The notes beneath the pieces are model-generated. The model saw only the letters and a program-made list of their open reading frames with translations. It searched no databases and was not told the DNA's origin. The position numbers and the translations under genes are program-made. 64,000 bases of DNA from Cephaloticoccus sp. (GTDB lineage: Bacteria > Verrucomicrobiota > Verrucomicrobiia > Opitutales > Opitutaceae), in contig JAURHD010000007.1 in assembly GCA_030833445.1 (NCBI GenBank), positions 1-64,000 on the forward strand. The letters are read 5' to 3'. Below, piece after piece: positions 34,184 through 36,784 of this stretch (within the stretch, counting starts at the first letter, position 1; each line of letters starts with the position of its first letter).

Positions 34184-34543
34184 ATGCCCAAAATCTTTGT
34201 CTACGGCACATTGAAACGCGGCGGCAGCAACCATCATTACCTGCAGGATCAGACTTACATAGCGGACGCTCAAACTGTGCCCGGCTATACCTTGTATCAA
34301 CCGGCTGATTATCCCGGATTGGTTCCGGCGGCTAATGACTCAGCAGGTGTGACGGGTGAAGTCTGGGAAATCACCCTGGAGTGCCTGCAAGCTGTTGACG
34401 CGCTGGAAGGGACGACCGAAGGGCTCTATGCCCGTAAACATATTTTATTGGCTCCACCCCACGATAGTTTCCAAGTGGAAACGTATTACTACCTGCCACC
34501 TATTGCAGGCTACCCCCATTTAGGTTCGACCTGGCCGGTCTGA
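34184..34543 (+). CDS. Gamma-glutamylcyclotransferase-like protein (AIG2/GGCT fold)
   Basis: 119 residues beginning FVYGTLKRGGSNHHYL, the substrate loop of this fold, with the catalytic-type Glu in DALEGTTEG near residue 86. Relatives cleave gamma-glutamyl amines or peptides into 5-oxoproline, but many have unknown substrates. It starts two bases after the PP2C gene and probably shares its transcript. Confidence 0.88.
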   Translation: MPKIFVYGTLKRGGSNHHYLQDQTYIADAQTVPGYTLYQPADYPGLVPAANDSAGVTGEVWEITLECLQAVDALEGTTEGLYARKHILLAPPHDSFQVETYYYLPPIAGYPHLGSTWPV

Positions 34544-34550
34544 TCGCGAC

Positions 34551-34928
34551 TCAGGTCTTCTTGAGGTGTTTTTTGGGGATCTGTTTAACCGTGGCAAATT
34601 TGGCGCGAAACAACTCATCCATCGCTTTGAGGCTCGCGGCCGGGATGCGTTTTACCAAGTCGTCGAGTGCCGGGAACTCCACCCTATCCTCCCGATCTTC
34701 TTCTTCAGGCGGCGGCAAGGTGACTCTGAACTCAAACGGTTCTTCCTGATAAACTGCATCTTCGCCTTCACTCGGGCCCACCGGGGCTTGATCGTCTTCA
34801 TCGGAAACCACCGGAGACGGAATGAGCTCTGGTTCAGTTTCCTCTTCCGTCTCGTCTACTGCAACTACCGGGGCGGGAATCTGCGCAAGCCGGTCGCGGA
34901 TGCCGGACTCCAAACGGTCAATCAGTCC
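34551..34928 (-). CDS. dnaX: Tau-specific C-terminal extension of DnaX (-1 frame)
   Basis: An open frame of 125 codons in the -1 frame relative to dnaX. It begins directly at the A10 tract near the dnaX stop, so the join gives [15 protein letters not shown] and onward. The extension is acidic in the middle (runs of Glu/Asp) and ends with a basic helical part ([20 protein letters not shown], then KKHLKKT), fitting a flexible linker plus a small binding domain as expected of tau. Its only independent start is a TTG at 34913 without Shine-Dalgarno support, so a separate gene is unlikely. Predicted tau length is about 510 residues. A sequencing indel in the homopolymer is the alternative. Confidence 0.68.
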
Positions 34929-36082
34929 TTTTTTTTTTCGCCGTCGGCACCAGCATTTTCCGGCAGCGATTCCGCCAAGGCAGACAGCTCCTTGATCAAG
35001 GAATCTATTGCCCGCGAACGACTGGCCTCAACGGCCTTCAGTAGGGTAACCTCGAAATTTATTTTTTCCGCCAGTCCCAGTTTCACGCCACCCTCGCCTT
35101 CCCGCAGGGCATCGAGCATCCGCGTAGCCTGCTCGGTAGTCATGGGAATCTCGCCCAATCGTTTTGTGTGACCGCCCTGCGCAATCGCATCCAGCAACGC
35201 CGTCCGCACATGGGCCTGCAAATCGGAGAGCATCCGCACCAAATCGCGGCCAGCGGCATCGCATTCGTCCACTATCGCCACGATTTGTTTGTGATCCCCT
35301 GCCGCCATCGCCCCGGCCAAAGCCTCGATCTTGCTTTGGGCGACCAATCCAAACACATCCAGCACATCTGGCTCGGAAATTTCGCCACCACAAAATGAAA
35401 TCATCTGGTCGAGAATGGACTGGGCATCCCGCAGTCCGCCGTCGGCCATGCGTGCAATACAGGCCAGGGCATCGCTCGAGACCTTGATCTTCTCCTCCTT
35501 GGCAATTTGCTGCAGCCGGCCCACAATCAGCTCGGTGGGTATCGGCTTGAGGTCAAAGCGCTGACAGCGGGAAATCACCGTCAGTGGCATTTTTTGCGGA
35601 TCCGTGGTCGCAAAGACAAACTTCACATGCGGCGGCGGCTCTTCGAGGGTTTTCAGCAGGGCGTTGAATGAACCCGGTGAGAGCATGTGCACCTCATCGA
35701 TGATGTAGATTTTGAATTTGGCTGAGGCCGGGGCATAGCCCACCGAGTCGAGGATGGCTTCGCGGATCTTGTCCACCTGCGTATTACTGGCGGCGTCAAA
35801 CTCGATCACATCCAGATGTGATCCATCCGCAATGGATTGGCAGACCGGGTCATTGACATCGAAATCTGCGTTTGGCCCATCAGTGCAATTGAGCGCCTTG
35901 GCAAAAATACGCGCCGTCGTGGTTTTGCCCGTGCCGCGGGGGCCGACAAACAGGTAGGCATGTGCAATTCGGTCGCGGCTGATGGCATTCTTCAAGGTCC
36001 GCACCACGTGATCCTGCCCGACAACGTCGGCAAACGTCTGGGGACGCCATTTGCGGGCAATGACTTGATAGGCGATCGGCAC
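34922..36082 (-). CDS. dnaX: DNA polymerase III subunit gamma/tau
   Basis: 386 residues in the zero frame from a GTG start. It has the clamp-loader ATPase: Walker [10 protein letters not shown] (47-55), DEVH Walker B near 129, and the sensor motif TTDPQKMP near 167, plus the collar domain to about 365. The family zinc module normally has four cysteines; here I see two (LNC and VCQSI). The frame ends just after the A10 tract, close to the length of a gamma form, with the tau extension in the -1 frame. It loads the sliding clamp and ties polymerase to helicase. The SRP RNA gene lies just upstream. Confidence 0.95.
34928..34938 (-). promoter_or_regulatory. dnaX: Recoding site in dnaX (A10 tract with A AAA AAG)
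   Basis: On the minus strand the codons read GAA AAA AAA AAG GAC TGA. The final seven bases of the tract plus G make A AAA AAG in the same phase as the known E. coli dnaX -1 slippery heptamer. GGACT at 34928-34924 can pair with AGTCC at 34909-34905, a short hairpin. The ten-A run is also long enough for transcriptional slippage, as known for Thermus dnaX. Confidence 0.7.
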
Positions 36083-36134
36083 GATGGACTTAGCAGAATT
36101 CCGAAATCAAATAGGGCAAAGCGAAAATAAAAGT

Positions 36135-36230
36135 GGCCAGGCACTCCACGGCACTGGGAGAACGTCGTTACCGTTGCTACCTTCCGGTCCTGGCGGAGTT
36201 CACGCGCCTGCCCATGCATGGCACCTGGCC
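36135..36230 (-). ncRNA. ffs: Signal recognition particle RNA (small bacterial type)
   Basis: About 96 bases on the minus strand closing with GGCCAGG/CCTGGCC ends. It carries the diagnostic apical loop: CCAGGACCGGAAGGTAGCA, the Ffh-binding GGAAG tetraloop and its internal loops. A T-rich stretch (CTTTTATTTT) follows as a probable terminator. The gene sits just upstream of dnaX, a neighbour pairing also seen in other bacteria. The exact ends are set by the outer stem only. Confidence 0.93.
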
Positions 36231-36331
36231 GAGGCGGACCGTAGGTGCCCAGCCAGCGCATTCAACTGCAAATTGAATTATATCTTGGATTCACGCGCCA
36301 ATCCTGGCCGATCGAGATCAAAATTACCCGG

Positions 36332-36784
36332 TTATGACTCGGGCGGTGCATTATCCAGAACTCCCGGGGGAGGCGGTGGAAGCCGTCCTCCTTCAGGATT
36401 ACGGCCGGGCCGATCTCGCCGCCACCGTTCACGCATTTCTCTCTTCAATTCGTCGAGTTTGATCACCTGGGCCGGGGTCAGGACCTTGGCAATCTGCTCA
36501 TTCATGTTTTCCGCTACGGCCACGGTTTCCTTAAAACCGCTGCTGCGCAATCGTCGCAGTTCCGCCTCGGTCGCGGCCACAATGGGACGGATTTTCTCCA
36601 GTTGTTCCGTCGTCAGTTCCAATCGATCGGAAAATCGATGCAACAGCATCGGCGTAAATTTATCCATCGCCGAAGGCCGAAAATCGTGACTGCGCGCGAC
36701 TCGCAGGGAAATAAATCCGCCAAAGACCGCACCGGCCAAAAACACCCCCAGAAAGGCCAGAATGACTTTCCAAGGTTTATTCAT
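36332..36784 (-). CDS. Spy/CpxP-like periplasmic sensor protein
   Basis: 150 residues: a membrane anchor or signal at about 7-27, then an alpha-helical periplasmic part with two LTxxQ-type motifs (LTTEQLEKI near 56 and LTPAQVIKL near 102), and a Pro/Arg-rich tail. This pattern matches heavy-metal sensors and Spy-like chaperones. It overlaps the preceding gene by eight bases, and so is the third gene of an ECF sigma operon. It may sense envelope or metal stress and feed it to the sigma factor; that is inferred from context. Confidence 0.8.
   Translation of the reverse strand: MNKPWKVILAFLGVFLAGAVFGGFISLRVARSHDFRPSAMDKFTPMLLHRFSDRLELTTEQLEKIRPIVAATEAELRRLRSSGFKETVAVAENMNEQIAKVLTPAQVIKLDELKREMRERWRRDRPGRNPEGGRLPPPPPGVLDNAPPES

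Follow-up and report, generated by a model that had tools for sequence, protein, structure and literature searches.

The gene dnaX is a textbook case of one gene that gives two replisome subunits by recoding, and the route, through the ribosome or through RNA polymerase, differs between bacteria. In the window analyzed here, which is the whole stretch of 64,000 nucleotides from an assembly of Cephaloticoccus sp. (contig JAURHD010000007.1), dnaX stops just past a run of ten A while a second frame stays open from the same run, and this arrangement raises the question of which proteins the gene gives and by which route. The original prediction had read the zero frame as a short gamma and the recoded product as tau, and had left transcriptional slippage and ribosomal frameshifting both open. 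We put the probability at about three in four that this dnaX yields two clamp-loader proteins via programmed transcriptional slippage at the A10 tract. The features concerned are as follows.

36132 to 36230, minus strand: gene of the small SRP RNA, next to dnaX on its upstream side (Rfam RF00169, 66 bits)
34922 to 36082, minus strand: dnaX zero frame, giving gamma of 386 aa with AAA+ domain, lid and domain III (Pfam and NCBIfam)
34929 to 34938, minus strand: A10, the proposed slippage tract, in phase and the sole A10 of the assembly
34928 to 34934, minus strand: A_AAA_AAG heptamer at the 3' end of A10, a possible ribosomal shift site (from the sequence)
34922 to 34924, minus strand: zero-frame stop TGA, one codon past A10 (from the sequence)
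34918 to 34920, minus strand: stop TGA of the third (+1) frame, by which both non-tau frames are closed (from the sequence)
34551 to 34928, minus strand: -1 frame, the putative tau-specific extension (linker and C-terminal tail), 125 codons and a stop (open frame and dN/dS)
34560 to 34676, minus strand: conserved C-terminal tail of the putative tau, residues 85-123 of the -1 product (comparison and prediction)

The zero frame begins with a GTG start codon at 36082 on the minus strand. Its product was matched by PF13177 (132 bits), PF22608 (53 bits) and PF12169 (25 bits) of Pfam and by TIGR02397 of NCBIfam (416 bits against a cut-off of 250), and, with the AAA+ clamp-loader domains and domain III present, it belongs to the DnaX clamp loaders. 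The minus-strand reading GAA AAA AAA AAG GAC TGA of the original prediction was found in its place, as was the open -1 frame of 125 codons at 34551-34928. Past A10, 125 codons are open in the -1 frame, one in the zero frame and two in the +1 frame, and a product read in the zero frame through AAG and in the -1 frame thereafter would have 385+125 = 510 residues. Comparison with relatives supports the view that a complete gamma is encoded in the zero frame, and a conserved extension, which would be joined to gamma only by recoding, in the -1 frame, and in these two parts the original reading of gamma and tau has held.

A comparison of the run length and the -1 frame across related genomes had been proposed together with that reading, and relatives with dnaX in a single frame had been taken as a sign of an indel. 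In a first family set of 111 loci, in which the window's own locus was counted twice, the split was present in 106, four loci ended before the tract, and one (L054) had a single frame of 497 aa, with A10 in place of the A9 of its near relative L170; one of the 106, L053, has a split dnaX whose contig ends after 87 open codons of the second frame. The set used hereafter consists of 116 distinct loci, namely those of family code f1 and named records matching at 73% identity or more, and the named relatives include Opitutaceae, Opitutus, Lacunisphaera, and Ereboglobus. Tau lies in the -1 frame in 114 of the 116 loci (95 with A10 and 19 with A9), i.e., a two-ORF dnaX with a -1 transition at poly-A is kept among the relatives, and the single-frame form with tau in the zero frame is limited to the remaining two. 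In the 114 split loci, the run is followed by G in 94 and by C in 20. All 146 family rows that have a run, with near-copies counted, carry at least A9, which exceeds what the heptamer requires; elsewhere in the dnaX genes of the family, Lys is encoded by AAA in 28% and Glu by GAA in 30% of cases.

Besides the A10 at dnaX, the 2.92 Mb assembly has no other A10, and exact A9 was found at five other places. In 14 other genomes of the family, which were picked by hand, the A10 pattern was matched zero to five times per genome; judged by position, an A10 lies in or at the end of dnaX in 10 of the 14, and it is the genome's sole A10 in six of these ten (4.0-6.0 Mb). For the order as a whole, 372 genomes were searched and 344 had a dnaX match; the site was read in a part of them, picked to cover families and pooled with the named family records, and, after removal of 36 near-copies and of 7 loci off the contig end, 234 distinct readable dnaX loci were obtained. 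A run of A9-A13, beginning at residue 366-395, stands at the dnaX site in 226 of these 234 loci (A10 in 177, A9 in 42 and A11-A13 in seven), for which chance is no explanation; the rest have A8 (two loci) or a shorter run or none (L117, L120, L132, L133, L219, and L291). In other orders of the class, 152 genomes had a match, and in all 20 of them that were read at the site dnaX is one long zero frame of 451-701 residues, with no run over A6 near the site. The window's order forms one side of a fully supported branch in the DnaX tree.

Sixteen very small genomes (0.8-1.1 Mb) were counted apart from the 234 loci. Those of f74 keep A9 and a long -1 frame (six of six), and no run over A7 was found in those of f7, f73, f75, and f76 (ten of ten). 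In L132, L300, L298, and L299 (f7, 0.8-0.9 Mb), the long A-run is gone, with A7 in L298 and less than A6 in the others, and a stretch resembling the C-terminal tail of tau follows domain III closely and in the same frame (398-406 aa), as though these genomes had retained a single DnaX product. In L301, L307, and L313 (f75 and f76), DnaX has 354-366 aa, the site has no A-run over A6, the zero frame contains nothing that is evidently a tau part, and tau may have been lost in these reduced genomes. The DnaX of L133 (f6, 1.3 Mb) is likewise short, with 389 aa. Two dnaX-like matches per assembly were found in G301, G331, and G376 (f2), which may be duplicate genes or mixed bins.

The frame of tau was called as the longest open frame, and the calls for L226 and L232 were corrected by the C-terminal tail profile. 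With the six loci without a run of eight or more left out, tau lies, relative to gamma, in the -1 frame in 148 order loci, in the zero frame in 49 and in the +1 frame in 31. Some families are uniform (f16 with +1 in 17 of 17, f11 with -1 in 15 of 15) or nearly so (f2 with the zero frame in 20 of 23, besides f1, the family of the window), and f19, f20, and f8 are mixed. The minimum number of tau-frame changes was 17 on a FastTree tree of the gamma part (142 scored rows), 15 on an IQ-TREE tree (69 rows, 63 scored), and 7 on the FastTree tree after removal of 13 isolated or unsure rows chosen by hand, parts of the DnaX tree being unsure owing to some long branches. A net one-base change at the run accompanies the flip of frame between L250 and L251, L214 and L239, L205 and L215, and L054 and L170; the flip between L217 and L223 is less clean, with other gaps nearby, and in further pairs of near relatives the frame differs via changes outside the run. 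Since each of these five flips is that of a single assembly, it may be a homopolymer assembly error, which would count against slippage, whereas differences between whole families cannot be errors. A homopolymer of eight or more with a direction of frame change that is not fixed among orthologs, as found in this order, is taken as a mark of slippage in the main text of PMC3711429 (Antonov et al., 2013), and the frame drift of the order therefore favors slippage.

Closure of the non-tau frames was scored as a stop within eight codons from the end of the run, and the expected numbers were derived from other positions of these genes. Both non-tau frames are closed in 138 of 148 loci with tau in the -1 frame (6.9 expected), in 40 of 48 with tau in the zero frame (4.2 expected) and in 29 of 31 with tau in the +1 frame (2.5 expected); where tau lies in the zero frame, families short of full double closure are f19 (5/9), f2 (18/20), f14 (0/1), and f15 (0/1). 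The frame that has no reason to close under a -1 ribosomal shift is closed in 140 of the 148 tau -1 loci, against 28.1 expected. In the window's family, CTG ATT GA after the site is read as L-I-D/E in the tau frame, and each of the two other frames has TGA there; the double closure of the family is thus partly a by-product of residue conservation, and selection need not have acted on the closure itself.

As for an element of the E. coli type, the window has A_AAA_AAG, and neither a conserved downstream stem-loop nor an upstream Shine-Dalgarno-like stimulator was found with it. The GGACT/AGTCC stem, which the original prediction had suggested as a weak stem around the site, can be drawn there, but it occurs at the same offsets in just 9 of 95 A10 family loci, and the window's stretch folds worse than its shuffles (z +1.52; the fold was equalled or bettered in 190 of 200 shuffles). 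This stem was therefore rejected as a stimulator, and it is a part of the original reading that is not supported. The consensus fold of the downstream stretch in the window's family was empty, and single-fold z values of 70 family loci were -0.28 and -0.33 against 0.04 and -0.01 for controls, a signal slightly above control. Rfam includes a dnaX frameshift family, and no Rfam frameshift element was found in 34400-36400 among the matches at E up to 5. Shine-Dalgarno-like sequences stand at background level in the window's family (11/116 against 8.4%), and are above a background of about 7-10% in f2 (10/22), f16 (7/17), f20 (6/10), f21 (4/10), and f19 (5/15), an excess that counts against slippage.

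Against this evidence three other explanations have to be weighed. Homopolymers are error-prone and the window's genome is a draft of 72 contigs, which would suit a frameshift mutation or an assembly error, with dnaX broken or the run truly A9 or A11. However, the 114 of the 116 distinct family loci that share the split include those of seven single-contig assemblies (G011, G012, G021, G028, G078, G156, and G175), and among the ten closest disjoint pairs the second frame has a dN/dS of 0.11-0.32, apart from one pair with 0.78, so that a broken gene or indel is refuted at the family level and is scarcely credible for the window. Among close pairs, the second frame is thus under purifying selection. 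The values range from 0.19 to 1.26 in the next ten pairs, with medians of 0.54 (2842 pairs), 0.62 (52 disjoint pairs), and 0.47 (last 70 aligned columns), and the scatter in wide pairs may be due to poor alignment of the linker. It is also very improbable that the second frame is a separate protein with an internal start. The window offers TTG at codon 6, which the original prediction had taken for the sole start but which is merely the first, followed by GTG at codons 40, 50, and 83 and ATG at codon 103, and 89 of 114 family loci have ATG or GTG no later than codon 40. Yet ATG or GTG lies within 20 codons in just 33 of the 114, any start codon with a Shine-Dalgarno-like sequence lies within 40 codons in 30, and 49 order loci have gamma and the part downstream of the run fused in one frame; internal initiation was rejected for want of a conserved start.

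The remaining explanation is programmed -1 ribosomal frameshifting at A_AAA_AAG, by which shifting ribosomes would make tau and those staying in frame would terminate at TGA and yield gamma. The heptamer is in phase here and in most family loci with tau in the -1 frame, where the direction is almost constant, and this speaks for a ribosomal shift and against slippage, as does the prevalence of G after the run in the family. The split is retained in L219 with the A6 heptamer alone; this A6, standing before C (A_AAA_AAC), is short for slippage, and it is possible that L219 has switched to ribosomal frameshifting. In E. coli, according to a passage of PMC5009743, ribosomes shift much more on A_AAA_AAG than on A_AAA_AAC or A_AAA_AAA, so that the loci with C after the run have a poorer E. 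coli site, with A_AAA_AAA still available within the run. In f16, where tau is in the +1 frame, the -1 frame is shut at once in all 17 readable distinct loci, and a -1 ribosomal shift is therefore unable to make tau there. A run kept longer than a shift needs and a closed third frame are further points against this explanation, which we consider unlikely. We infer from these comparisons that both gamma and tau are made and that slippage, not a ribosomal shift, is the main route: slippage is favored over E. coli-type frameshifting because the tau frame varies across the order and a stop shuts the third frame, and further because the window's family lacks a conserved stem or Shine-Dalgarno stimulator. 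Of the two mechanisms between which the original prediction did not choose, slippage is thus preferred on the frame variation and the closed third frame.

Under transcriptional slippage, RNA polymerase would make dnaX mRNAs differing in the number of A. The mRNAs with the templated 10 A (or with 13 or 7) would end one codon on and give gamma of 386 aa, those with 11 A (or 8 or 14) would enter the second frame and give tau of about 510 aa, and those with 9 or 12 A would enter the third frame, terminate at the following TGA and yield a product similar to gamma. Some further tau may come here from ribosomes that slide on A_AAA_AAG. For the order, we lean toward the view that the polymerase slips so freely that the templated tau frame hardly matters, the gamma:tau ratio being set by slippage and the +1 dnaX genes being normal and working.

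The second frame had no Pfam or NCBIfam match. In its AlphaFold2 model (mean pLDDT 67.5), two helices are well predicted, of which residues 2-15 open the second part and residues 97-111 fall inside the conserved tail. On profile comparison, the tail is shared, with probabilities of 85-97%, by f2, f5, f8, f11, f19, f20, and f21, that is by seven of the eight other families tested, in which tau lies in the -1, zero or +1 frame; f16 was matched weakly (22%), and the tau C-termini of other orders gave no significant match (2%). Since the C-terminal part of E. coli tau binds polymerase and helicase, the tail would by analogy serve the links of tau to other replisome proteins, polymerase or helicase.

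An order that has kept the A-run and switched the tau frame provides natural experiments for separating the two mechanisms, and lets us ask whether polymerase slippage sets the gamma:tau ratio; if the view of free slippage is true, the ratio would be governed by slippage rather than by the templated frame. In such genomes, tau would be expected to escape annotation that ends at the first stop codon. In searches limited to the open PMC library, we found no report on the window's family, on +1-organized dnaX or on frame drift within an order, and thus no precedent in print for the order-wide drift with +1 arrangements.

The arrangement of the window is not new in kind, because two-ORF 'reverse' dnaX with A10 has been in print since 2013. 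The GeneTack dnaX cluster in the main text of PMC3711429 comprises 17 such genes of 12 genera, nine of them with 10 As and all 17 in the -1 frame, and slippage was proposed by the authors; as in the window, the zero frame gives gamma and a -1 change gives tau. No word starting with Opitut occurs in that main text, and the window's family may still belong to the set. The window's order differs from this set in having tau also in the zero and +1 frames. PMC3711429 is cited in PMC5009743, where a passage states that one nucleotide can reverse the roles of gamma and tau. The IS630-family transposases expressed by slippage (described in the same main text of PMC3711429) likewise differ among orthologs in the direction of frame change, but they are a mobile-element gene and not a replisome gene with two products. 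With E. coli dnaX, the window shares A_AAA_AAG and the origin of gamma and tau from one gene (passages of PMC3711429 and PMC5009743); there, however, the -1 ribosomal shift makes gamma with a Shine-Dalgarno-like sequence and a stem-loop, whereas the window's family has a longer run and no conserved Shine-Dalgarno sequence or stem, and a shift would make tau. With Thermus thermophilus dnaX, which is expressed by slippage at A9, the window shares the A-run before the tau part and the stops that close the non-tau frames (passages of PMC1088944 and PMC5009743). The templated frame is that of tau in Thermus thermophilus and that of gamma in the window, and it is the loci of the window's order with tau in the zero frame that resemble the Thermus thermophilus gene.
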